Below, piece after piece: positions 6,324 through 20,637 of a stretch of DNA of 64,000 bases. The DNA comes from Pontibacillus marinus BH030004 = DSM 16465. Lineage in GTDB: Bacteria > Bacillota > Bacilli > Bacillales > BH030062. The position numbers and the translations under genes are program-made. The notes under the pieces are model-generated. The model did no database searches and was not told the DNA's origin. It saw only the letters and a list, made by a program, of their open reading frames with translations. The stretch is from assembly GCF_000425225.1 (NCBI RefSeq), contig NZ_AULJ01000031.1, forward strand, positions 1 through 64,000, in the 5' to 3' direction. The number at the start of each line of letters is the position of its first letter. The first letter of the stretch is position 1.

Positions 6324-6340
6324 TTTGCGTGTGTACAATG

Positions 6341-6382
6341 GTGCCTGACCCCCAGTGCTTTAAAGCGATGGGGGTCAGGCAC
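6341..6382. repeat. 42-bp palindromic element, copy 5
   Basis: Standard arms, centre AGTGCTTTAAAGCGAT. On the right GGCACCTACAA occurs twice, imperfectly in tandem. This is the last copy before the biosynthetic cluster; the next is 14 kb away. Confidence 0.93.
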
Positions 6383-6530
6383 CTACAAGTAAGGCACCTA
6401 CAATAATCTACTTTTCTCTATACTAATTCTAAAAACCTGTGCAAGTTCTCATAATTTCTTTAGTTTTTAAGGCTAAATCAGTGGTTCTTTCCCAAGCTCA
6501 ACCCCCTAGAAATCAAGGATTTTATAGTGG

Positions 6531-6621: not shown

Positions 6622-6741
6622 ATGATGAAAGAACTACCAAAGGACATTGTAGAATCTTTAGAAGATCTTCAAATTGAAGTTTCTAAATCAGAAGCTACTG
6701 AAGAAGATGTTGAAACTGCTCTTATGATTAAAGCTTGGTAA
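6622..6741 (+). CDS. Putative RiPP precursor peptide ending in Ala-Trp
   Basis: A 39-residue ORF with a near-perfect ribosome binding site (AAAGGAGGAG, four bases before the first of two ATGs). The peptide starts MMKELPKDIVESLEDLQ and ends TALMIKAW. It has 11 acidic and 4 basic residues, no Cys, and a single Trp that is the last residue. An acidic, probably helical N-terminal leader plus a short distinct C-terminus, encoded first in an operon of modifying enzymes and a peptidase, is the layout of ribosomally made, modified peptides (PQQ, mycofactocin and pearlin types). I know of no described precursor with this sequence. It has no secretion signal, so maturation should be cytosolic. Confidence 0.7.
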   Translation: MMKELPKDIVESLEDLQIEVSKSEATEEDVETALMIKAW

Positions 6742-6750
6742 TACCTAATG

Positions 6751-6773
6751 AGGGAGAAATATTATTTCTCCCT
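6751..6773 (+). terminator. Hairpin between precursor and biosynthetic genes
   Basis: A perfect 10-bp stem AGGGAGAAAT / ATTTCTCCCT with a 3-nt loop, starting nine bases after the precursor stop. It is followed by CTCTTAAATT rather than a true T run, so it is more likely a partial terminator or 3' stability hairpin that lets the precursor mRNA exceed that of the enzymes. Confidence 0.6.
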
Positions 6774-6802
6774 CTCTTAAATTCAAGAAGGGGTGTTAAG
6801 TG

Positions 6803-8611
6803 ATGAGCCAGCAATCTACATATACCGCATCAACCAATATTACCTCTAGAAATATGGTGTGGACTAGTAACTTACATGTTCAAGATCTTAGAGACGAATT
6901 TAGTACACATAAGATAAACATTCATGTGAAGGACCGCTCTTTTTACCCTTACCATGGGATCAACCTCATCGTAGAAGAGTTGGATAAAGCCAAAATACTA
7001 AGCTCAGATTGTAAGAGTGCTTATAAAAAGCTCATGAATGAATGGAAGAATACTCAATTCTCTTCAGATTCTATTCTATATAGCATTATTCGTAGAATTA
7101 GCAGAGAATCCATGTCTTCCATCAATCTAATTGACAATTTCACTCAACTATTGAAAAGAGATATGGTTAGTTATTTCAATCAAATGAATCAAAAGTTATA
7201 TCTTTTTATTCAAGATTCAGAATGGCTTGATAGGCCCACTTTAAGGATTTTGTATCATATTGCAAAAATTGTACCAGGTAACATCCTTACACAAGCATGG
7301 GGGTTTAGTGGGAGAACTCATTTCGAAGACTTTGAGACATCATTTGATGACATAACTAACAATATCATCAGGGCAAGGTACATGATTTTTAACAAAATTT
7401 CTGCCGATCTTCAGTTAACGGATATCAACGAAAATGCTTCAGATATTAGATGGGAAGAAATGAAGTATAAAAGTATTGCTGAAAATCCCTTAAGTAATGC
7501 AGCGTTAGCACTTGTAACGTTGAATTATGAGTATGGATTGCTTACTTGTAAGAGTCTTGCTGAGAGTGATGATGCCAATGAAGAGCTTTACAGAATTCTT
7601 GGTCTCATTCATGTGAATTTAAACCACCCAGAACTAGCCTATGATTCATTGATGACTGCTTTAAATATAACGGAAAGTGTATCAAAGAAAGCACATTTAA
7701 AATACTTATGTGGCTTGCTCGCAACAAAGAGATTTTATGACTTTGATTTAGCTGAAAAGCTTTATGACGAAGGCCTTGAGTTATTACGTGATGAAACAGA
7801 GGACGAAGAGGTACGCCTTGAAAAAGCTTGGTTATTTAATGGGATTAGTTTCTTGGATGCAACGAAAGGGATGCAAGAAACCCAGCAAAGAAGACAGGAA
7901 TTGTTTGAGAGCACGCTCAGAAGAGAACTTGAGGCATTACAAATTATTAAGAACGATCATGGGAAAGGGCCCCTTTATTTAAAGTTTAACTTGTACAGTA
8001 ACATAGCCTTTTTATTGGAAATCAAAAAAGACTATAGTAAGGCTTTAGAATTTTGGGAAAACATGTTTGCTAAGTATTCTTATATTGAGAGTGACGGTGT
8101 CAAAAAGGCAGACTCCCTCTATCTATTCAGAACCGGAATGTTGCATTGGAAGAAAGAAGAATATGATACAGCTCTTGATTATCTTCAACAATCTTCGTCC
8201 GAAGCAGAATTCATGAAAGAAAGAATCTTTTATCAACTCATTAATTATTCTATTGGTTATATTTCGTTGCAAAAAGAAGACTATAGTCAGGCTCTACATG
8301 CGTTTGCGAATGGATTAAAACTAGCTAAATCATTAAATGATTTAGAAATGATCGATAAGTTGTCTAAAGGTTATTTGAAGGTTGCGATTCACAATCATTC
8401 ATTTGAGGAAGCTGTTGCCTATTTAAAGCAACTATTTATTGCAGAAAATTATCAAATTGAACTGCTTAACAAAAATAGTACAGATCTATATGACATTATT
8501 CAAGACTGTGACCTTCCTTCACCTAAGACGAAGTTACCTTCCTATTATCCACTGTTTGATTTGGAAGCGAAGCCAAAAATCGATATGAATAGCTATTTAA
8601 TTCATAATTAA
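6803..8611 (+). CDS. TPR-repeat protein of the cluster, function unknown
   Basis: A soluble protein of about 602 residues (GTG 6800 or ATG 6803, both near AAGGGG). The first about 230 residues match no domain I recognise. From about 250 to 560 the sequence falls into helical tetratricopeptide-like pairs (for example ELYRILGLIHVNLNHPELAY, SALEFWENMF-like and QALHAFANGLKLAKSL segments). No nucleotide-binding or catalytic motif is visible, and it has no HTH. Placed directly after the precursor, it may bind the leader and present it to the enzymes, or may be a divergent enzyme. It is not a recognisable LanB, YcaO or radical SAM protein. Confidence 0.6.
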   Translation: MSQQSTYTASTNITSRNMVWTSNLHVQDLRDEFSTHKINIHVKDRSFYPYHGINLIVEELDKAKILSSDCKSAYKKLMNEWKNTQFSSDSILYSIIRRISRESMSSINLIDNFTQLLKRDMVSYFNQMNQKLYLFIQDSEWLDRPTLRILYHIAKIVPGNILTQAWGFSGRTHFEDFETSFDDITNNIIRARYMIFNKISADLQLTDINENASDIRWEEMKYKSIAENPLSNAALALVTLNYEYGLLTCKSLAESDDANEELYRILGLIHVNLNHPELAYDSLMTALNITESVSKKAHLKYLCGLLATKRFYDFDLAEKLYDEGLELLRDETEDEEVRLEKAWLFNGISFLDATKGMQETQQRRQELFESTLRRELEALQIIKNDHGKGPLYLKFNLYSNIAFLLEIKKDYSKALEFWENMFAKYSYIESDGVKKADSLYLFRTGMLHWKKEEYDTALDYLQQSSSEAEFMKERIFYQLINYSIGYISLQKEDYSQALHAFANGLKLAKSLNDLEMIDKLSKGYLKVAIHNHSFEEAVAYLKQLFIAENYQIELLNKNSTDLYDIIQDCDLPSPKTKLPSYYPLFDLEAKPKIDMNSYLIHN

Positions 8612-8650
8612 ACACTACTATTTAAAAAATACGATATTAGGAGTTTTTAA

Positions 8651-9235
8651 ATGAATAAAAATGTAGTTATTTGCGGCAGTATTAAACCTCCAAAAGGGCA
8701 AGATTCCCAATCAGCTGCAAGGGAAATTGCAAAGCTCTTCATACGAGGAATGGAAGATGGAGGATTAAGTGAATATTCCTATTTTGATCTAAGAGATATG
8801 GACGTTCCTTTTTATGATGGGAGATCGCTGGAAGAATACGAAGATGATAATTTAAATCATTTTAAAGAGTGTCTGTTACAAGCGGAAAACATTATTGTAT
8901 CTGTTCCATGTTATTGGAGGTCTGCTGCAGGACCATTTGTGAACATGATCAATGTGTTTGGTGGACCGTTATATGATGATCCTGAAAAAAGAAATATCCT
9001 TTCTGGGAAGAAGATTCAGGTTATCACTGTCGGTGCTAGTAACACAGATGCTGTGTATGGGACTCAGCATGTTAATCATCTGTTCACATCACTCGGTGCT
9101 ATCGTTTTGCCAGATGAAATTATGGTAGGAAACCTTAGAGGGTCAAGTGAGGAAGAAAGAAAAGAAATTAGTAAGAATATCTATTTATCTGGTAAGAATC
9201 TTGCAATAGAGCAAATGGGGGTAGCAGTAGAGTGA
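8651..9235 (+). CDS. NAD(P)H-dependent flavin reductase-like protein
   Basis: A 194-residue protein with the flavodoxin-like fold of NADPH-dependent FMN reductases. It shows the N-terminal strand and phosphate loop VVICGSIKPPKGQDSQSAA (residues 5-23), a YFDLRDMDVPFYDG segment near residue 40, and SVPCYWRSAAGPFVNMINVFGG near residue 85, where the family binds the flavin ring. It likely uses FMN for a redox step on the cluster substrate. Its stop overlaps the GTG start of the next gene (GTGA), implying translational coupling. The second flavin reductase of the cluster (15263-15811) is only distantly similar. Confidence 0.75.
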   Translation: MNKNVVICGSIKPPKGQDSQSAAREIAKLFIRGMEDGGLSEYSYFDLRDMDVPFYDGRSLEEYEDDNLNHFKECLLQAENIIVSVPCYWRSAAGPFVNMINVFGGPLYDDPEKRNILSGKKIQVITVGASNTDAVYGTQHVNHLFTSLGAIVLPDEIMVGNLRGSSEEERKEISKNIYLSGKNLAIEQMGVAVE

Positions 9236-9915
9236 AAACGAGTACAGCTGAAGAAGTCAAAATTAAAAAGATCTTTGATTGGTTGACTGAAAATCATTTT
9301 GTTCCCGAAGATTGCAAGTTTAGTAATGATCAATATAGGTATATCAGAAAACAGGTTTTAAACAATATATCCTTACCAGGTACAACCATCACACCGATTA
9401 TGGAGAGATTCTTATACACCATAAGCAGTAGTAACCGTATTAAAAATATTGTCGTATTTGGAAGCTATTATGGGTATGCCCTTAGCTGGCTATTAAGTGG
9501 TGGGATAGATAATCAAGACCGAAATGTTGTTGGTATTGATATTGATAGTGAGGCTTGCGTTGGAGCCAATCAAAACCTTATGAGAATTAAGAATACATTA
9601 AATGGAAATGCAACATTCTCTATTGAAAATCAAGATGCATTAAAGGAAATGGATTGTATTGATGATCATTCCATAGATTTATGCTTTTTAGACATTGATG
9701 TAAATGGGTCCAAGAAAGAGTATATCGACTTGCTTGAAATTTGGGAGGATAAGATGAGCCAAGGTGGGATTATTTTAGCTCACGATCCACTAGTTGATAA
9801 ATTTCAAGAGGATTTCTCTGCTTTTCATGAATTTATTAAAACCAATGATTCTTTTAGTCATTATGTAACGCTACCTTTAGATTTTTGTGGGATTGATCTA
9901 TTTAAAAGAACGTAA
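9232..9915 (+). CDS. Class I SAM-dependent methyltransferase-like protein
   Basis: A 227-residue protein. IKNIVVFGSYYGYALSWLL (near residue 75) fits motif I, VVGIDIDSEA fits the acidic strand-2 end that binds the SAM ribose, and IDLCFLDIDVNG with GGIILAHDP fit motifs IV-VI of O-methyltransferase-type Rossmann enzymes. The substrate is unknown; the context suggests a precursor-derived amino acid or its keto form. GTG start overlaps the preceding stop by four bases. Binding of SAM for a non-methyl-transfer reaction cannot be excluded. Confidence 0.65.
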   Translation: MKTSTAEEVKIKKIFDWLTENHFVPEDCKFSNDQYRYIRKQVLNNISLPGTTITPIMERFLYTISSSNRIKNIVVFGSYYGYALSWLLSGGIDNQDRNVVGIDIDSEACVGANQNLMRIKNTLNGNATFSIENQDALKEMDCIDDHSIDLCFLDIDVNGSKKEYIDLLEIWEDKMSQGGIILAHDPLVDKFQEDFSAFHEFIKTNDSFSHYVTLPLDFCGIDLFKRT

Positions 9916-9930
9916 ACGGAGATGTTTTTA

Positions 9931-11013
9931 TTGGAACAGATTATTGATTTATCAATAGGAAGTGTAGCAATTGAACCGAGTGAAAACATGAGAAAGTATT
10001 CTGCTGCCGTTTGTCTTGAGAAATGGGGAGGTTATACGAGCCCATTTGGACTAACACAGTTAAGGAAGGATATCCTAACGAATTTCTCTCATAACTTTTC
10101 TAGTATTGAATTAGATAATGTCCTTATCACTCAGGGGGCTACGATGGGGCTAAATCTTATTTATCAAATGTTTAAAGGTGAATCCATTCTAATTCCTGAC
10201 CCTGGTTTTCCCTTATATAGTGAGAGTGCAGAATTATATGACATGAACGTTTATAGGTACAGACTAGGCTGGGGTAGTGATTGGGAGCAAACCATCTCTG
10301 ATATAAAAGTAGGATTGGAACAGGGCGTTAAGCTCGTTATCGTGAATAATCCCAATAACCCAAATGGATTTTTATTTAACAGAGAGCAAATTGAAATTAT
10401 CGCTAACCTCTGCAGTGAATACAATGTCCATTGCATATCAGATGAAGTATATCGAGATTTTTCTTTTAAAGATGATCCTGTCCCAAGTTTAGTCGATTAT
10501 ATTCCGGAGAGAACGTTTCTTTTATATAGCTTCTCTAAATCTTATGCGATGGCAGGCTTTAGAGTAGGTTTCCTAATACATATGAATAAAGCGTATATAA
10601 AAACATTATCTTTATATCACTGGAGAACCATGATGTCCGTATCGTGGCAAGGTCAGAAGATTGCTTCTTATGTACTAAAACATGAACAAGATTTTCCAAA
10701 TCATGTGAAAGAGCAAATAAAAGATAATATTACTTATATTGTAGACCGTTTACATGAACATGATATTTCATTTTTTGTACCAGAAGGCGGAATTTTTCTT
10801 TGCCTAGACATTTCGAAGCTCCATATGAATTCCATTGAATTTGAGCAAAAAATATTTAAGGAAAAGAGAGTCTTAATATCACCTTGTGCTCCTTTTGGCA
10901 CTACAGGTGAACAGGTTATAAGGATAAATGTAGCGCTAGAACATGAGAAATTTCAATATGCGATAGAAGAAGTTATAGATTTTATACAAAGTGAGCGAGT
11001 GGTAGCTAAATGA
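9931..11013 (+). CDS. PLP-dependent class I/II aminotransferase
   Basis: A fold-type I PLP enzyme of 360 residues. ITQGATMGLNL near residue 70 binds the phosphate, NNPNNPNG near 140 holds the cofactor ring, ISDEVYRDF carries the Asp, and LLYSFSKSYAMAGFRVGF carries the Schiff-base Lys (SFSK). This is the aspartate/aromatic aminotransferase pattern. TTG at 9931 is nine bases from GGAG; the ATG at 9922 abuts the Shine-Dalgarno and is unlikely. It shares ATGA with the next gene. In an operon with a Trp-ending precursor it could transaminate a released aromatic amino acid, but this is inference. Confidence 0.82.
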   Translation: MEQIIDLSIGSVAIEPSENMRKYSAAVCLEKWGGYTSPFGLTQLRKDILTNFSHNFSSIELDNVLITQGATMGLNLIYQMFKGESILIPDPGFPLYSESAELYDMNVYRYRLGWGSDWEQTISDIKVGLEQGVKLVIVNNPNNPNGFLFNREQIEIIANLCSEYNVHCISDEVYRDFSFKDDPVPSLVDYIPERTFLLYSFSKSYAMAGFRVGFLIHMNKAYIKTLSLYHWRTMMSVSWQGQKIASYVLKHEQDFPNHVKEQIKDNITYIVDRLHEHDISFFVPEGGIFLCLDISKLHMNSIEFEQKIFKEKRVLISPCAPFGTTGEQVIRINVALEHEKFQYAIEEVIDFIQSERVVAK

Positions 11014-11909
11014 CTACGTTAATTATTGGAGCGGGAATGATTGGCTCCTTTGTTGCAAAGGAATTTAGTGCATCTGGTGAAAAAGTTATCCTTTTGGGTG
11101 GTAAACCTGACAGATCCTATATTCAAAAAGTGAGCAACATGAACAGGGACATGATAGTAGACAAAATGATTTTAAATGAGGAAGACTTATTAACCGTCAT
11201 CGATCATGATCATGTAAAGAATGTAATTGTCTGTGCGGGTATGATGAAAAACCATTTGGAAAAAGATTCTCATATGTCTATTTACAATGAATCTCAGTTA
11301 AATTTATCGATCTTATATGCTCTATCCAGTTCAAAACGTGTCCAAAGCGTAACCTATATTAGCTCTTTGGGAGTCTATGGGGATCACATGCCTGAGGATA
11401 AAGTGAAACCAAAACCCAATTCAATGTATGGGACAGTCAAGCTATACAATGAACATGTATATAAGAAATTACATGATCTGAACCCGACCATTGATGTAAA
11501 TATCATTAGACCTATAGGAGTATTAGGTCCCTGTCCTAAGGTGAGTGGGAATTGGATGAGTCAGTTAGTTCGGAATATATACTTTTCTAATAAACCCATA
11601 AAAGTTGAAAGTAACCAAGATTCTTTAGAAATCTTAGATGTAAGAGACTTAAGTAGAGTCATTTATCAAACTTATAAGAATCACAATGGTCTTTGTGAAA
11701 AGAATGTAAGAAGTCATCAATTTTATGAAGTAAATACCTTATTAGAACATTTATGTGAAGCATATGAAAAAGAGATCCGTATAACCTATAACGACAAAAG
11801 TCATAACCATGTAACTAACAATCTGAGTAAACAAATTCAGCCCAAGGGTTTTTTTGATTTAAGAAGTACTTTGGAAATGATAGGGGATTTCTATAATGAT
11901 GAAGGTTAA
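11010..11909 (+). CDS. NAD-dependent epimerase/reductase (extended SDR)
   Basis: A 299-residue Rossmann protein. The N-terminus TLIIGAGMIGSFVAKEF supplies the GxGxxG-type dinucleotide loop. TYISSLGVYGD supplies the active-site Ser region, and SMYGTVKLYNE supplies the Tyr-x-x-x-Lys pair of the extended short-chain dehydrogenase family. It is likely a reductase or epimerase acting on a small carbonyl substrate made by the aminotransferase. The gene starts inside the previous stop (ATGA) and overlaps the following start, so it belongs to the same coupled operon. Confidence 0.78.
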   Translation: MTTLIIGAGMIGSFVAKEFSASGEKVILLGGKPDRSYIQKVSNMNRDMIVDKMILNEEDLLTVIDHDHVKNVIVCAGMMKNHLEKDSHMSIYNESQLNLSILYALSSSKRVQSVTYISSLGVYGDHMPEDKVKPKPNSMYGTVKLYNEHVYKKLHDLNPTIDVNIIRPIGVLGPCPKVSGNWMSQLVRNIYFSNKPIKVESNQDSLEILDVRDLSRVIYQTYKNHNGLCEKNVRSHQFYEVNTLLEHLCEAYEKEIRITYNDKSHNHVTNNLSKQIQPKGFFDLRSTLEMIGDFYNDEG

Positions 11910-13989
11910 GGATATATTTCACCAATACCTCCCTAGTATGGAGGAGGGAGTAGTGGGGATTGAATATGAAGTAGGAAGTTCTACGACAGGTTTAAAGAAT
12001 GGAGTGGCGCATTTCATCGAACACCTGATACATCGTGAACATAGTGGTAAGTTCTATAATCAATTGACTGCTAAAACATCTAAAGATCAAACCAAATTTC
12101 AAACGAAGGTTCATCAAGATGAGTTGAAGCAATCAGGCGAAAGGTTATTCCATTTGCCTTATATTTCATTCAATAACGCCCATATCGAAGAAGAACGAGA
12201 AATCATAAAAAATGAAGAAAAAGAAAAGCACGAAAGTAGGGCATATACCATTATTAATGAAGGGAACTCATCTTTATTTCATGATGAGAGCTATGGTTCA
12301 CCTGTAATTGGAAGTCAATCCAATATTCTATCGATCACGAAACAAGACTTAATGGAAGGAATTGATATATATGTACACGCGCCTGTGAATCTATACATTA
12401 TAGGACCTTGGTCAGAACAAGAGATTCGTAATGTAATAGAGGCGAAGGGGCAATTCAATACTACAGAGAGTTTCAACACATCAATATCTCAAAATGAACT
12501 CGCTGAAGCTCGTACATATACATATCTCCATAATGAGAAGGTTTATATCAATTCTTATAGATTACCTGGAACTGAGAGTTTTGATGAGATTAATTTTGCG
12601 TTACTTAAGAAGGTATGGGAAAAGAGAATCTCTTCAATTGACGAAGTACACATGCACATCACCCTATACCATTCGGATGGAGCTATTATTCTGGATAACA
12701 AGAGGGGTTTTGATCTGAATGAACAAGCAAAAGAGATGCTCTTTAAAGAGGTGTCTTATAAAGAGTATCGTTTAGCCCAAGCATTACTTCAACTCGAGAT
12801 TGATAATCTTCATGAGAATTTAGAGTCCAGATTGAATCCATTATATAAAACTTTTATACGTAATGGCTTTCCAAGTTATAAAGAGTTGAATCGAAATCAT
12901 AACCTTTTATCGAACCGTTTTAGTTTCTCTATTACATCTCACATTGCAGCAAGAGATATTGGAAATGAAAAAGATCATAAACACGTAGTACCAGAGTTAG
13001 TGTATAACAAAGAAATGAATGGTAGGTATTTAACCGTTTCTTCAAGCCCTTTAACAGATCGTATTCATCTTATGTTAAGAGTGAATAGCCTTTCATTAGG
13101 TAGGTTGCTCGTAAAGGAAGATATTAAAAAAATAAAAAGGCTCACGAAGGTTGGCTTTTTAACAAGTGTTAGATATGAAGGGGTTCATACACTTTTAACG
13201 TTTACCTTTTATAACAATGATGGATTACGAGCTTTTATTAACAATTTGGATTTTGTAAATGAAAAATTTGTTTGGAATACAGACAACAAGGAAGTTTTCT
13301 ATTCTAGTTTTGAAAATCGAATAAAGTATAAGATGTTTGAGTTGTTTGTTGGAGAAACAGAAAAAGTGGATTCCTTTATTATAGAAGGGATCAGTGTAGT
13401 TGGTAACAAGGTTGATGTCAGTTCTATTGAAAAGTTTTTATTCAATCAGGGATCAAAACCAACTCCACAACTATCAGATCCGTTCCAAAAGGGTAGCAGA
13501 TTGAATTCCATTGAAAATGGTGCGGCTGTTCTTTATAAATTACCTAACCCAGTATTTGAATCTTTAAAGATCCAGGAAGCTGCATTTGCGCTTAATGGGC
13601 CAATTCCTTCTTTAGTTGAGCGTGTCAGAGAAGCTGGCCTTGCTTATAGTATTACACAAAGCATATGTAAAGGTTTTGAAGGCTCTTATATTTACTGGGC
13701 TATACCCTGCGAAACTGATTCACAAGAACAGTTCTATCATATAGTGAGAACATGGTTAAGAACATTATCAGAAGAGTACACAGCTGTGGAGAGTTGGTTC
13801 AATAACATTTGGATACCATGGAATGTTTCTGCTCACAAATCTGTATTCCATTTATTACGGGACGTTGATCGAAATCAATATTTTAAATCTAATCAAAACG
13901 CTCCTAGTTTACAAGATTATATAAATACCTTAATCGATCAAAAGAGTATGAACATTTCAATCAATAAGGAGGTTGCCCTCATTGAATAA
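11896..13989 (+). CDS. M16-family zinc metallopeptidase
   Basis: A 697-residue cytosolic peptidase. The inverted zinc motif HFIEH is at residues 39-43, with the distal Glu cluster EEEREIIKNEE about 60 residues on, so the catalytic site is intact. A second M16 half in the C-terminus has LVERVREAGLAYSI, the conserved Arg/Tyr element that closes over substrate. M16 enzymes cut short peptides held inside a clamshell, and relatives trim RiPPs (PqqF; AlbE/AlbF in subtilosin). Here it probably removes the leader or frees the modified C-terminus. It overlaps the preceding gene by 14 bases. Confidence 0.85.
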   Translation: MMKVKDIFHQYLPSMEEGVVGIEYEVGSSTTGLKNGVAHFIEHLIHREHSGKFYNQLTAKTSKDQTKFQTKVHQDELKQSGERLFHLPYISFNNAHIEEEREIIKNEEKEKHESRAYTIINEGNSSLFHDESYGSPVIGSQSNILSITKQDLMEGIDIYVHAPVNLYIIGPWSEQEIRNVIEAKGQFNTTESFNTSISQNELAEARTYTYLHNEKVYINSYRLPGTESFDEINFALLKKVWEKRISSIDEVHMHITLYHSDGAIILDNKRGFDLNEQAKEMLFKEVSYKEYRLAQALLQLEIDNLHENLESRLNPLYKTFIRNGFPSYKELNRNHNLLSNRFSFSITSHIAARDIGNEKDHKHVVPELVYNKEMNGRYLTVSSSPLTDRIHLMLRVNSLSLGRLLVKEDIKKIKRLTKVGFLTSVRYEGVHTLLTFTFYNNDGLRAFINNLDFVNEKFVWNTDNKEVFYSSFENRIKYKMFELFVGETEKVDSFIIEGISVVGNKVDVSSIEKFLFNQGSKPTPQLSDPFQKGSRLNSIENGAAVLYKLPNPVFESLKIQEAAFALNGPIPSLVERVREAGLAYSITQSICKGFEGSYIYWAIPCETDSQEQFYHIVRTWLRTLSEEYTAVESWFNNIWIPWNVSAHKSVFHLLRDVDRNQYFKSNQNAPSLQDYINTLIDQKSMNISINKEVALIE

Positions 13990-15247
13990 AAATCTTTATT
14001 TATTATGGGCCGCAGATTCAACTTCAGTTTTTGGTTCTGCCATATATACGCTCACTTTAACTTTACTAGCCATTAATTATAGTGAAAGCGCATTAGCTGC
14101 TGGGTCTGTACTGTTTGTTTCTACATTCCCTTATTTGTTTTTAGGCGTTCTGGGTGGAGTGATTGTAGATCGTGTTGACAGAAAAAAACTAATGCTAATC
14201 TGTGATATAGCAAGATCTGCATTAGTGTTGAGTGTTCCTTTATATCAACTTGTTTTTAATCATTTACCCATTGTATATATCATGATTGTCGGATTTTTAG
14301 TTACTTGTTTTCGAGCATTCTTTTTTCCGGCTAATCAAGCTAGTGTGCCTATTTTAATAAAAGATAAAGATGAGCTTACGAAGGTAAACTCTTATATTAA
14401 TTCAACCAATAATTTAAGTGTTGTTTTAGGGCCATCTTTAGGTGGGGCAGCCTTGATTTTTACGGATAATGTGCCTGTTTTACTTTATGTAACGAGTGCA
14501 ACATTTTTAATTTCAGCAATTTGTATCTTTTTCATTAACTTTCCTGAATCAGTAGCGGCTAATCACCAAGAAGAAAACCAGAATAAATCAACAATTCTTC
14601 AAGATGCTTATTCCGGCATTAAGTATATTTTTAGAGGTGACATCTTTGTAACGATCATGATCATTGCCTTTACGGTTCAGTTAATTATTGGTGATGGAAT
14701 TGTTCAGTTAGTATTTCCGAATTTAATAGAATCACTGAACTTTGATAAAGAACAATATTTTGGTTATTTGCTATCAACTATAGCCCTTTCAGCTTCTATA
14801 TGCTCCTTAATAATGGGGAAATTAAATATACAAAACCCAGACAGATGGATCTTCTCAGGGTATTTTTTGAGGGGGGGATGCTACTTATTACTCATGATTT
14901 CATTAAGTTATGGATGGTATCTAGTGATTTTTTCAGGAATTCTTTTAGGGCTTTCTTTTGCGATAAGTGGTCCAACATTAACGACAATCTTACAAGCGAG
15001 AACGCCTGATGATCTAATGGGAAAAGTTATGGCAGTTCGATCTACAATTGGAAATATCACGGATTCCGTATCTTACGTCTTTATAGGAGGTTTGATATCT
15101 CTAACAGGTCTTGGTTCTACGCTTTCTATATCAGCTGGATTAACACTCGTTGCAACACTTGGATTATTACTTTGGTGGAATTACAAAAACAAACAAACTC
15201 AAAACCAACATTCAGTTGAGAACTTAAAACAAACCATAGAATCCTAA
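13982..15247 (+). CDS. MFS efflux transporter of the cluster
   Basis: A membrane protein of about 421 residues with 12 predicted hydrophobic segments. GGVIVDRVDRKKLM near residue 65 is the major facilitator loop-2/3 motif (G-x-x-x-D-R-x-x-R-K). It resembles the MFS_3/enterobactin-exporter type used for secondary-metabolite export and self-protection. The TTG at 13982 is nine bases from AAGGAGG; the TTG at 13973 abuts the Shine-Dalgarno. Translation begins within the last codons of the peptidase gene. It presumably exports the mature product. Confidence 0.82.
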   Translation: MNKNLYLLWAADSTSVFGSAIYTLTLTLLAINYSESALAAGSVLFVSTFPYLFLGVLGGVIVDRVDRKKLMLICDIARSALVLSVPLYQLVFNHLPIVYIMIVGFLVTCFRAFFFPANQASVPILIKDKDELTKVNSYINSTNNLSVVLGPSLGGAALIFTDNVPVLLYVTSATFLISAICIFFINFPESVAANHQEENQNKSTILQDAYSGIKYIFRGDIFVTIMIIAFTVQLIIGDGIVQLVFPNLIESLNFDKEQYFGYLLSTIALSASICSLIMGKLNIQNPDRWIFSGYFLRGGCYLLLMISLSYGWYLVIFSGILLGLSFAISGPTLTTILQARTPDDLMGKVMAVRSTIGNITDSVSYVFIGGLISLTGLGSTLSISAGLTLVATLGLLLWWNYKNKQTQNQHSVENLKQTIES

Positions 15248-15262
15248 TGGAGGGAATTGATC

Positions 15263-15811
15263 ATGAAAGTTTTATTATTAGCAGGTAGTGCAGGAAAGCC
15301 TTCACATACTTTGGGAGGACTAAAGAAAGTAGCAGAGGAATTAAACAAGTTATCTGTAGAAACAGAAATTTGGGACTTGAAAAAAGAAAATCTGCCAATG
15401 GCCGATGCAGATTATCATAAAAATCCTGAAGACCATCCAGATGAAAAAGTTAAAAGACTTGTTGCTAGTGCCAATGAAGCGGATGCCATTATACTAGGTT
15501 CTCCTAATTACCATAATTCATTTTCTGGATTATTGAAAAACGCATTAGATCACCTTAATATTCAAAACTTTTACTTAAAACCTGTTGGATTATTCACTCA
15601 TAGTGGGGGGATTCGAAGCACAGAACCATTAGGGCAGTTACGCCTAGTTGCAAGAGGATTGTTAGGTGTAGCCATTCCTATGCAAGTCGCTACATGCAAT
15701 GAGGATTATGATTTAATTGACAATGAATACGAAATCACCCATGAAGCCATGAGAGAAAGAATCCAAGCTTTTAGTGAACAATTGGTTCAATTTGCAAATA
15801 ACTTGAGATAA
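15263..15811 (+). CDS. NADPH-dependent FMN reductase family protein
   Basis: A 182-residue flavodoxin-fold protein. KVLLLAGSAGKPSHTLGGL is the phosphate-binding start, EADAIILGSPNYHNSFSGLL (near residue 75) is the flavin-ring loop with the usual GSP-x-Y, and PVGLFTHSGGIRST is the third loop. This is the SsuE/azobenzene-reductase type (NAD(P)H:FMN oxidoreductase). ATG at 15263 lies eight bases after GGAGGG; the upstream TTG is too close. It is the second flavoprotein of the cluster, so at least two redox steps or an FMNH2 supply are implied. Confidence 0.8.
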   Translation: MKVLLLAGSAGKPSHTLGGLKKVAEELNKLSVETEIWDLKKENLPMADADYHKNPEDHPDEKVKRLVASANEADAIILGSPNYHNSFSGLLKNALDHLNIQNFYLKPVGLFTHSGGIRSTEPLGQLRLVARGLLGVAIPMQVATCNEDYDLIDNEYEITHEAMRERIQAFSEQLVQFANNLR

Positions 15812-15831
15812 CCCATTTAGGAGGTAACAAC

Positions 15832-16743
15832 ATGTTAAAGTTGAAGGTCACTATAGACAGTACATGGGTGGATCTTTTGGTCAATCAAGGAAAAGAACAC
15901 TATGTTGAGAAGTGGAATGAGTATGTAGAAGCTAAAGGCCTCCATAAAAGCTTTTATCAAGCATTGAGTGTTCCAGATGGAGATATCGAAAACGATACTG
16001 AGCAATTTAATAAGATTAAAAGCTATATCGTAGATCAAAAGCTTCATTCTATCAGGAATATTGAAAAGTTCTTTCCTGAAATAGAGGATCCTATAGAACA
16101 TGATTTAAATGTGGTTTTACTTCCTTATGGCAAAATTAATTTTGGTATCGAAGAAGGTACTCAAATATTTTCGTTATCTCCAGAGGCACATGAGGTTGAA
16201 ACAAATCTCTTTTTAACACATGTTTTTTATCATGAAATATCATCGATCAATAATACAGATTGGGCGAATGAAGCTGAAAGGGATTTTGAAAACCTATCAA
16301 ATTATAAATACTTGATCCAATTGTTAATTCGAAATGAAGGTATAGGGAATTATGCGATTCTTAAGGATTTAATGAATTTCAATGATGAGCATCCAACCTA
16401 CAACTTTAACTATTTTACTTATGCCAATAAAATTAATGATGACTTTTATATTAAAAAGTCCTTTGAACTATTATATAAGTTGTTTAGTTTTGTAGATGAG
16501 GAAAACTTTAATCAATTGCTACCTACATTAAATCATTCTCTTAAGGATAAAGGAATGCCATTAATCAATGTAATTGGTATTTATATGGCACGAAGAATTG
16601 CAGAGTATTATGGGGAAGACGTTTTGAAAAATATATATAAAGTTGAAAGTACCAAGTTTTTTGAATTATTCATATCTACAAATGATAAATATGTAGAATT
16701 TGTAAAAACATTAGGTCGTGAGGATGGCATATACGTCAAATGA
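15832..16743 (+). CDS. Zincin-like protein with catalytic Glu replaced
   Basis: A 303-residue protein. Residues 130-134 read HVFYH and residues 169-174 read EGIGNY. This is the layout of gluzincin-like peptidases (HExxH, then E-G-x-x-x-Y about 35 residues on), but the catalytic Glu of HExxH is Val131. The three metal ligands (His130, His134, Glu169) are kept. LLPYGKINFG near residue 96 matches the strand before the active-site helix in such families. It may bind metal without cutting, chaperone the precursor, or use the neighbouring Glu135. It is the last gene of the operon before the regulator. Confidence 0.5.
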   Translation: MLKLKVTIDSTWVDLLVNQGKEHYVEKWNEYVEAKGLHKSFYQALSVPDGDIENDTEQFNKIKSYIVDQKLHSIRNIEKFFPEIEDPIEHDLNVVLLPYGKINFGIEEGTQIFSLSPEAHEVETNLFLTHVFYHEISSINNTDWANEAERDFENLSNYKYLIQLLIRNEGIGNYAILKDLMNFNDEHPTYNFNYFTYANKINDDFYIKKSFELLYKLFSFVDEENFNQLLPTLNHSLKDKGMPLINVIGIYMARRIAEYYGEDVLKNIYKVESTKFFELFISTNDKYVEFVKTLGREDGIYVK

Positions 16744-16776
16744 CGTAGGTAAATAGATGTTATCAGCTTCCTGTTC

Positions 16777-16811
16777 ACTCCAATATCAGAAGGTTATGAT
16801 AAAATTGGAGT
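16777..16811 (+). promoter_or_regulatory. Promoter and inverted repeat before the regulator gene
   Basis: Eight-base arms ACTCCAAT (16777-16784) and ATTGGAGT (16804-16811) flank a TATGAT -10 box (16795-16800), 34 bases before the GTG start. A symmetric site around a promoter would suit autoregulation by the downstream HTH protein; it could instead be a weak hairpin ending the upstream operon, though no T run follows. Confidence 0.45.
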
Positions 16812-16833
16812 AGATAAACAGGGGGTTGATCGT

Positions 16834-18120
16834 GTGGATAATATAGGAGATATTGTTAAATATTATCGAGTTTTGGAAGGAATGACCCAAGAGGAACTCG
16901 CTAAGGGGATCATATCCTCATCCTATTTATCTAAAATTGAAAATAATTTAGATAAGCCTAGTACTGAAGTTTTATCACTCCTTAAAGAAAGACTAAATAT
17001 AAAGGATGAAATGTTCATAAGTAATCAGACCTTGGTAGGTGAACTTATGGACTGGTATAAAGACATTACTACTAAAAATTTCGCAGATGCTGAAGCATTC
17101 TATGATAACAATAAACAAAGGTTTAATGTTACTACTGATTTGACAACGTTATTTTATTTTAAAATTTTTGAAGCTTACTATTTTTTGTTAAACAGTAGGA
17201 CAGAAGATGGCATTCAGTATTTTGAAGAATTGCAGTATGACATTGATTCATTAAATGATAAGCAAAGTTATTTCTATTATAGAATAAGTGGGTATTATTA
17301 TTTCTTTCATTCATATTTTAGTTTTGCTTTAGATTCTTTTAAAAAAGCAGAGCGAGTATTGAATGAGACAATAAACGTAGAAGAATGGGATGTTGCTGAA
17401 TTATATTATATGCTGGGCATGACTTCCTCAAGATTACGTTTAGAGCAACAAGCCATTTATTTTACAACGAAAGCTTTAGAGGTTTATAAAAACATCTATA
17501 ACCTAAGTAGGTTAGCTGAATGTCACCTATTGTTAGGTATTTCATATGGGAGAACGGACTTCTTCGATTTTGCTGAGAATAATTATTTAAAAGCTAAGAA
17601 AATTGCTGATTCTTTAGATTACAAGATATTACTAAGTAAAGTCCATCATAATATGGCTTATTTAAATATTAAAAAAGGCGAATCTGAGGAAGCCATCAGA
17701 GGTTTGAAAAGTAGTTATTACTATAAGTTAGACTGTAACGTGCAAGAACAAGAATTTCTACCAACTATATTTAGCCTGATTAATGAGTATCTACGTATAT
17801 CAGATATCGAGAATTGTAGAATTTGGATTAACGAAGGTATGAAAATTAATGAGAATAATTCTGTTGTATTATCTTTAGATTATGATATTCATTTTAATAC
17901 GATTAATAAATATATTAATCAATCTGATGATTTTGAAGAGTATTGTTTAACGACAACAATACCTCATTTTAAAGAAAAGAATAAAGATGAATACACCGCA
18001 AGATATTCACATTTGTTAGGCGTTTTTTATGAAAATATCAACAAGTATAAGCAAGCATCTATGAAATATAAGGAAAGTTTATTTTTATTAAATAAAAATT
18101 TAGGAGGCTTTTTATTATGA
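16834..18120 (+). CDS. NprR-like HTH-TPR quorum-sensing regulator (RNPP family)
   Basis: A 428-residue regulator. Residues about 4-60 form an XRE-type helix-turn-helix (GDIVKYYRVLEGMTQEELAK, then SSSYLSKIEN). The rest is a chain of TPR helices, typical of Rgg/NprR/PlcR/PrgX proteins that bind re-imported signalling peptides. The length matches NprR (about 420) rather than PlcR (about 285). Its TGA overlaps the ATG of a small exported-peptide gene (ATGA), the same arrangement as nprR-nprX. It probably senses that peptide and activates the biosynthetic operon upstream. The GTG start is preceded by AGGGGG. Confidence 0.85.
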   Translation: MDNIGDIVKYYRVLEGMTQEELAKGIISSSYLSKIENNLDKPSTEVLSLLKERLNIKDEMFISNQTLVGELMDWYKDITTKNFADAEAFYDNNKQRFNVTTDLTTLFYFKIFEAYYFLLNSRTEDGIQYFEELQYDIDSLNDKQSYFYYRISGYYYFFHSYFSFALDSFKKAERVLNETINVEEWDVAELYYMLGMTSSRLRLEQQAIYFTTKALEVYKNIYNLSRLAECHLLLGISYGRTDFFDFAENNYLKAKKIADSLDYKILLSKVHHNMAYLNIKKGESEEAIRGLKSSYYYKLDCNVQEQEFLPTIFSLINEYLRISDIENCRIWINEGMKINENNSVVLSLDYDIHFNTINKYINQSDDFEEYCLTTTIPHFKEKNKDEYTARYSHLLGVFYENINKYKQASMKYKESLFLLNKNLGGFLL

Positions 18121-18266
18121 AAAAAGTATTAGTTAGCATTTTGGTGATTTTATTATTAGCTGGAGGATCTAGTTTCTTAGTTAACGGGAATAACTCAAAT
18201 TTATACCAAGCAGGAGATATGGTTGTTGAGCCGAACTCTGATGAAGAAGACTATCCGAGAGTTTAA
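18117..18266 (+). CDS. Putative signalling pro-peptide (NprX/PapR-like)
   Basis: A 49-residue peptide. The N-terminus (MKKVLVSILVILLLAGGSSF) is a Sec signal peptide, followed by a short hydrophilic tail that ends NSDEEDYPRV. It starts inside the regulator's stop codon, with TAGGAGG 13 bases upstream. Size, topology and position match the cognate pro-peptides of RNPP regulators, which are exported, cut to 5-8 C-terminal residues and re-imported by an oligopeptide permease. The active form is probably within the last ten residues; the exact cut is not visible. A terminator follows 25 bases downstream. Confidence 0.78.
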   Translation: MKKVLVSILVILLLAGGSSFLVNGNNSNLYQAGDMVVEPNSDEEDYPRV

Positions 18267-18290
18267 TATCGTAAGTTACATTCAATTGAT

Positions 18291-18318
18291 AAAAAAGCTA
18301 CCAAAGGGTAGCTTTTTT
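18291..18318 (+). terminator. Terminator after the signalling peptide
   Basis: Stem AAAAAAGCTACC / GGTAGCTTTTTT with a 4-nt loop. It is symmetric A/T-flanked, so it can also end metA transcription from the other strand. Confidence 0.93.
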
Positions 18319-18339
18319 ATTTTGTCATTCATGGTTAGC

Positions 18340-20553: not shown

Positions 20554-20570
20554 TGTAGAGTTCCTTGCGG

Positions 20571-20612
20571 GTGCCTGACCCCCAGTGCTTTAAAGCGGTG
20601 GGGGTCAGGCAC
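20571..20612. repeat. 42-bp palindromic element, copy 6
   Basis: Standard arms, centre AGTGCTTTAAAGCGGT, between lrgB and a small gene. First copy after the 14-kb gap over the biosynthetic cluster. Confidence 0.93.
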
Positions 20613-20637
20613 CAATAAATAAAAGGGGGAGAACAAT

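Follow-up and report, generated by a model that had tools for sequence, protein, structure and literature searches.

Layout and conservation of the cluster

The 64,000-nucleotide stretch of Pontibacillus marinus BH030004 = DSM 16465 analysed here (contig NZ_AULJ01000031.1, positions 1 to 64,000; the window) carries on its forward strand, at 6622-18266, a gene cluster that opens with a short open reading frame (ORF) for an acidic peptide ending in tryptophan (Trp), continues with nine enzyme and transporter genes (6800-16743) which are tightly spaced or overlapping, and closes with a regulator gene and a second small ORF. By Pfam, the nine genes encode a tetratricopeptide-repeat (TPR) protein, two FMN_red proteins (FMN1 and FMN2), a Methyltransf_24 protein, an Aminotran_1_2 protein, an Epimerase-type short-chain dehydrogenase/reductase (SDR), a Peptidase_M16 protein and a major facilitator superfamily (MFS) protein, gene nine having no significant family. 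A preliminary description of this DNA had proposed the 39-codon ORF and the nine-gene layout, and both the coordinates and the Pfam assignments bear it out.

The order peptide-TPR-FMN1-methyltransferase-aminotransferase-SDR-M16-MFS-FMN2 is also found in three other Bacillota genomes, namely Bacillus litorisediminis and genome G061, both of another family (26-51% protein identity to the window cluster), and the more distant genome G440 (21-47%). The window methyltransferase is 37-41% identical to those of the other Bacillota clusters and 37% identical to that of Rhizobium lusitanum; the MFS protein is 44-46% identical to those of the other clusters. The cluster is real. A first screen of 150 relatives gave no full-length match to it in any of the 7 other genomes of the genus, and a contig profile search with a three-row TPR profile and two usable patterns returned B. 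litorisediminis only.

A conserved Trp-terminated precursor peptide

The first ORF (6622..6741, + strand), preceded by the ribosome-binding site AAAGGAGGAG, encodes an acidic peptide of 39 (or 38) residues, MMKELPKDIVESLEDLQIEVSKSEATEEDVETALMIKAW, whose C-terminal Trp is gene-encoded. Each of the other three Bacillota clusters has, directly 5' of its TPR gene, an acidic 33-residue ORF led by a Shine-Dalgarno (SD) sequence and ending in Trp-stop (MNQDLLKFLEDLNEEAEVVTDEEIEAAQLVVKW, MNQDLLKFLEDLSEESEVVTAEEIEAAQLVVKW and MEKELLEFLEDLSIETEEAQTEEIEVASLVANW in B. litorisediminis, G061 and G440, respectively), the last two residues being KW, KW or NW. Conservation is not confined to the end, as the peptide body keeps the pattern E-D-L...EE-[IV]-E-8 residues-W, with the eight-residue spacing to the end retained in 4/4. 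This layout is like the acidic EEIE...W of BhaA and AmmA, the peptides of the bha and ammosamide (amm) pathways. When SD-led ORFs of 25-50 codons were collected from 320 kb of the window and related loci, 74 were obtained; those both acidic and Trp-terminated numbered four, all lying directly upstream of the TPR gene in the four clusters. The 39-codon ORF is thus a conserved precursor, and with a conserved gene-encoded precursor beside modifying enzymes in 4/4 Bacillota clusters, the system is a ribosomally synthesized and post-translationally modified peptide (RiPP) pathway in the wide sense. We looked for homologous clusters that lacked the short ORF or had an unconserved C-terminus, either of which would have spoken against a RiPP-like pathway acting on the C-terminal Trp, as the preliminary description had envisaged; all three other Bacillota clusters keep both, and the proposal withstands this check.

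Between the precursor gene and the first enzyme gene lies an RNA hairpin (6750..6774, + strand; minimum free energy -16.2 kcal/mol, z -4.65), a candidate attenuator or 3' stabiliser. The three other clusters have a hairpin at the equivalent place (z -3.9 to -4.6), and its sequences differ; no strong T-run was found after the window hairpin. A hairpin between precursor and enzyme genes is common where the precursor must outnumber the enzymes, and by analogy it may serve that end here. A lone C-terminal Trp followed by a stable hairpin in 4/4 clusters could also be taken for a leader peptide of the trpL or tnaC kind, in which a Trp codon and a hairpin would make an operon responsive to Trp. We give this reading hardly any weight, since there is only a single Trp codon, the hairpin sequences are not conserved, conservation covers a peptide body resembling the BhaA scaffold, and the TPR partner retains the residues that bind the C-terminal carboxylate in BhaC1, the enzyme considered next.

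The TPR protein is related to BhaC1-type Trp hydroxylases

BhaC1 and AmmC1 are TPR-domain, FMN-dependent (flavin mononucleotide) enzymes with no canonical flavin site, BhaC1 purifying with FMN, which trihydroxylate the indole of the C-terminal Trp on BhaA-Ala-Trp and AmmA*-Trp; in the modelled active site of BhaC1, Asn472 is accompanied by Lys391 and Lys654, and Lys391 cross-links to the product (PMC9850906, PMC11117183). As stand-ins for BhaC1 we used its counterparts from the bha-like clusters of genomes G984 and G436. The G984 cluster has a BhaA homologue 72% identical to BhaA, PEARLs (LanB-like peptide-aminoacyl-tRNA ligases), a BhaH-like reductase and three TPR proteins, one of which, a 679-aa protein encoded two genes from the peptide (the BhaC1 position), carries Lys395/Asn476/Lys658 at a constant +4 offset from BhaC1. 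The second, in G436, has a BhaA-like peptide ending IAPLA, a TldD/E pair and PEARLs.

The TPR protein of the window (6800..8611, + strand; 603 aa) is, by sequence, a homologue of these Trp trihydroxylases. Its family aligned with the BhaC1-type group in hhalign with a probability of 99.5 (E 4e-22, 457 columns), and blastp of the window protein against the 679-aa G984 protein gave 3e-17. The alignment pairs Lys310/Asn401/Lys578 of the window protein with the equivalents of BhaC1 Lys391/Asn472/Lys654, and none of these three positions varies among the four Bacillota clusters. We sampled genomes of the order, the class, the phylum and the order of G440 with the TPR profile; wherever the surroundings of a strong match were examined, they proved to be a RiPP-like cluster, which argues against a generic TPR similarity. 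A PDB sequence search with the TPR profile returned generic TPR proteins only. The preliminary description was right about the TPR fold, as Pfam confirms, but its scheme relied on the reductases, a transaminase and the methyltransferase and so missed the predicted role of this protein as the key C-terminal-Trp hydroxylase. The first oxidation chemistry is probably already known by homology, contrary to the earlier expectation that the chemistry would be new.

Alternatively, the TPR protein could be a mere carrier or chaperone of the peptide, with all Trp modification done by the flavodoxin-fold reductases or the PLP (pyridoxal phosphate) and SDR enzymes. Peptide binding alone is common for TPR proteins, the cluster has two FMN_red proteins, and a canonical flavin site is not recognisable in the TPR sequence. 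To our knowledge, however, flavodoxin-fold reductases are not among the Trp oxygenases described so far. BhaC1 likewise has no canonical flavin site, yet is FMN-bound and hydroxylates Trp (PMC9850906, PMC11117183), and its cross-linking Lys, the Asn and the second Lys of the modelled site are all conserved here; we consider the carrier role unlikely and retain hydroxylation by the TPR protein.

A further link to bha is FMN2 (15257..15811, + strand; PF03358 1.7e-29), a flavodoxin-fold, NADPH-dependent FMN/quinone reductase with 30-32% identity (E 7e-19 to 2e-19) to the proteins at the BhaH position in G984 and G436. It is BhaH-like, and quinone reduction is its predicted role.

An AlphaFold model of the TPR protein, computed without the Rhizobium rows, had a mean pLDDT (predicted local distance difference test) of 74.9, with confidence mainly in the TPR part; in Foldseek it matched TPR proteins and, at a lower rank, the TPR-bearing STAND protein 6mfv, a result of limited use that nevertheless fits a degenerate NTPase-like N-terminus. 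Residues 1-230 (window 6800-7490) form an alpha/beta part resembling a STAND/AAA NTPase without a P-loop, in which LFIQDSEWLDRP resembles the Walker B region. This resemblance suggests STAND-TPR proteins as the ancestors of BhaC1-type enzymes.

Several relatives of these systems were seen in passing. The clusters of G984 (loci L042/L043) and G436 (L024/L034) are both of the bha-like pyrroloiminoquinone pearlin type; each has several PEARLs, two or three TPR proteins and a BhaA homologue, which ends APLAL and APLA, respectively, and TldD/E was seen in G436. Beside MFS/PEARL genes, L042:14238-15971 and L044:11396-13129 encode a 577-aa TPR subfamily with Asn for the cross-linking Lys and Arg for the second Lys; it probably has a different function within the same pathways. 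Another RiPP-like type, at L028:1682-6430, L025:1180-4800, L026 and L027:13882-17626, combines a LanD/CoaC-like flavoprotein, an MFS protein and a TPR protein of ~625 aa belonging to the BhaC1 superfamily, with the Lys and the Asn retained and the second Lys lost; L028 adds a methyltransferase. A tiny SD-led ORF, MRFEERNVYVCAPGTKRK, lies 5' of this LanD-type cluster in L025, L026 and L028, and its NVYVCAPGTKR unit stands in tandem in L025.

PEARLs are absent and the Trp is gene-encoded

All characterised pathways with a BhaC1-type enzyme that we know of load Trp by a PEARL. PF04738, the PEARL family, gave 0 matches genome-wide in the window's organism, B. litorisediminis, G061 and G440, as against 9 in the positive control G984, so that the absence of LanB/PEARL noted earlier for the cluster holds for the four whole genomes. 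Supply of a PEARL in trans is rejected for these genomes by the same result. As PEARLs are absent genome-wide, the Trp must be gene-encoded, and each precursor would be usable once. In ammosamide biosynthesis, too, the gene encodes a C-terminal Trp, which was at first proposed as the substrate, but its deletion is tolerated because AmmB2 adds Trp (PMC9505594).

Pearlin pathways extend the scaffold by an amino acid with at least one PEARL, and none was found here; the conserved acidic peptide has a BhaA-like layout and is a candidate scaffold whose terminal residue would be modified and then released, as in pearlins. The absence of PEARLs, together with that of YcaO and radical SAM (S-adenosylmethionine) enzymes among the cluster genes in Pfam, and the presence of an M16 peptidase, an aminotransferase and an SDR, which have not been described for bha or amm, could speak for an isolated new RiPP type, as first suggested, whose wholly new chemistry, unrelated to known scaffold-peptide pathways, would transaminate, reduce and methylate Trp. 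This is made very improbable by the BhaH-like reductase and by a TPR protein that is homologous to BhaC1 and conserves its active site. The best reading of the sequences is a PEARL-free relative of the pearlin/pyrroloiminoquinone route, a kind of BhaC1-type cluster of which we found no report among open-licence papers.

A Rhizobium version of the core

A core of TPR-SDR-FMN1-methyltransferase-aminotransferase-FMN2 genes is present on plasmids of R. lusitanum and R. leguminosarum (L030:8162-15392 and L031:10072-17284), where its neighbours are a homologue of pyruvoyl-type histidine decarboxylases and a conserved ORF of 75 aa that ends ...GAVAWAGAAV or ...GAVAWAGASV, in which Trp is not C-terminal. 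The window-type and Rhizobium TPR proteins form one clade (support 100/99). The Rhizobium proteins keep the equivalents of Lys310 and Asn401, and Asp replaces Lys578. The BhaC1 model has the carboxylate of the terminal Trp bound by the second Lys, and loss of Lys578 where Trp is not terminal fits this model, as a correlation in one lineage.

The remaining enzymes and a proposed route

Downstream of the TPR gene, and likewise on the + strand, lie the genes for the flavodoxin-fold FMN reductase FMN1 (8651..9235; PF03358 9e-17), kept in all clusters including those of Rhizobium; the SAM methyltransferase (9232..9915; PF13578 3.7e-9); the PLP enzyme of the aminotransferase class I/II fold (9922..11013; PF00155 4.8e-58), with its PLP lysine in an SFSK motif; the extended SDR (11010..11909; PF01370 5.2e-19), with a YxxxK motif; the M16 (insulinase-family) peptidase (11896..13989; PF00675 8.2e-5, above the cut-off); and a predicted MFS exporter (13973..15247; PF07690 6.6e-42). 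The best NCBIfam match of the PLP enzyme, below the cut-off, is GntC, a cyclodehydratase and not a plain aminotransferase. The M16 gene occurs in 4/4 Bacillota clusters, with the HxxEH zinc motif reading HFIEH in the window, HFLEH in G061 and HMLEH in G440.

We propose that the acidic peptide would carry its encoded C-terminal Trp from translation onwards, and that its acidic/hydrophobic stretch would bind the TPR cleft and present the terminal Trp to the FMN site of the BhaC1-like protein, where hydroxylation of the indole would probably yield a hydroquinone or quinone. Control of the quinone/hydroquinone redox state would then fall to the FMN reductases, or at least to FMN2 with its likeness to BhaH, and the Methyltransf_24 enzyme would methylate, most simply, a new phenolic oxygen. 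The M16 peptidase would free the modified residue, alone or within a very short peptide, a role in which the preliminary description had also cast it; in amm, release is by a TldD/E-like protease (PMC12424672). The PLP enzyme and the SDR could further convert the amino acid once released, for instance by transamination and then ketone reduction, or by PLP-dependent cyclisation, and the MFS protein, as previously suggested, would export the product. This route is built on the computed gene content, synteny, Trp-terminated precursor, BhaC1 homology with three active-site positions and absence of PEARLs; the reaction, the number and sites of hydroxylations, the methylation site, M16 release, the order of later steps and the product are proposed by analogy. 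Taken as a whole, we consider it likely that the cluster makes a small quinone-type metabolite from Trp on a ribosomal peptide, with no PEARL involved. New in it would be the PEARL-free architecture, the release enzyme, the late steps and the product, but not the oxidation step.

Several points weigh against this scheme. The TPR protein is only 22-24% identical, pairwise, to BhaC1-type proteins, and TPR repeats can inflate similarity; its FMN binding and Trp hydroxylation are predictions. BhaC1 rejects Lys before Trp (PMC9850906), and two of the precursors end in KW, so that specificity here must differ. M16 is not adjacent to the Rhizobium core and may have a role specific to Bacillota, and the Rhizobium 75-aa ORF is a candidate precursor only.

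Comparison with known systems

With the bha pathway of Alkalihalobacillus halodurans C-125 (BhaA, BhaC1, BhaH; a pearlin of the pyrroloiminoquinone type), the window cluster shares an acidic candidate scaffold whose C-terminal Trp is the predicted substrate, a predicted TPR/FMN Trp hydroxylase with K391/N472/K654 equivalents and a predicted FMN quinone reductase. It differs in having no PEARLs, the Trp and all that precedes it being gene-encoded, and no glycine oxidase BhaG; in adding the M16 peptidase, the PLP enzyme, the extended SDR and a second flavodoxin-fold reductase; and in the identity of its TPR protein to BhaC1-type proteins, only about 23%. Biosynthesis of the anticancer ammosamides and of lymphostin in Streptomyces/Salinispora has in common with the proposed route Trp-derived quinone chemistry on a peptide, an AmmC1 homologue, a quinone reductase, a methyltransferase, proteolytic release and, for amm, a gene-encoded C-terminal Trp (PMC9505594), which there is dispensable, a PEARL adding Trp. 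The four PEARLs, halogenase, TldD/E-like protease Amm12/13, dipeptidase Amm19 and Asn-synthase-like Amm20 of amm are absent here. In the RiPP-derived cofactors pyrroloquinoline quinone (PQQ) and mycofactocin, too, a C-terminal or near-C-terminal residue of a gene-encoded peptide becomes a small redox molecule, and PqqF is also an M16 peptidase, but those pathways use radical SAM enzymes and RiPP recognition element (RRE) proteins, none of which occurs here.

We lean slightly towards a broader view, that these clusters represent a PEARL-independent class of RiPP-derived small molecules in Bacillota and on Rhizobium plasmids, in which a gene-encoded Trp would be oxidised by BhaC1-type TPR flavoenzymes, released by M16 (in Bacillota) and converted by the PLP and SDR enzymes into a quinone of undescribed scaffold, the TPR flavoenzymes being a broad RiPP family that includes the LanD-type clusters with very small Cys-containing precursors. 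The cluster points to an undescribed Trp-derived quinone metabolite and allows the role of Trp oxidation on the peptide to be tested simply, with just two genes and a gene-encoded Trp used once per peptide. With its distant BhaC1 homologues the family could also help to locate the non-canonical FMN site, and the Rhizobium version, with its non-terminal Trp and lost carboxylate Lys, offers a natural contrast for the substrate-binding model.

Regulator, accessory gene and genomic setting

The last of the nine genes (15832..16743, + strand) encodes a 303-aa orphan protein that matches no family significantly and lacks homologues in the 119 other related genomes searched. It had been called zincin-like; it has no HExxH motif, and as it is absent from the other clusters we reject it as a core part and regard it as accessory.

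The regulator gene (16834..18120, + strand) encodes a helix-turn-helix (HTH)-TPR protein of the NprR/PlcR/Rap (RRNPP) type, with PDB matches to NprR (1.9e-9), Rap (1.2e-10) and PlcR (0.003). Overlapping it by ATGA is an ORF for a 49-aa peptide (18117..18266, + strand) with a signal-sequence-like N-terminus and the end DEEDYPRV, a putative cognate pheromone precursor. A small signal-peptide ORF beside the regulator is the typical RRNPP position, as with NprX and PapR at NprR and PlcR. The regulator and signal peptide recognised earlier are thereby upheld as a probable quorum-sensing pair. The link to the cluster is positional only, and the pair stands beside it only in the window's organism, where it probably controls the operon, so that the cluster may respond to cell density. 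An intrinsic terminator (18288..18321, + strand) closes the region.

The G+C content of the cluster is 29-35%, versus about 38-42% in the flanks. A palindromic repeat (GGTGCCTGACCCCCAGTGCTTTAAAGCG...) has 20 pattern matches in the window (660-46129), half of the 40 in the genome; copies flank the cluster, e.g. at 6340-6383 and 20570-20613, and nearby spacing is otherwise 1-2 kb. The cluster sits inside a 14-kb stretch without this repeat, as if it had been acquired recently.

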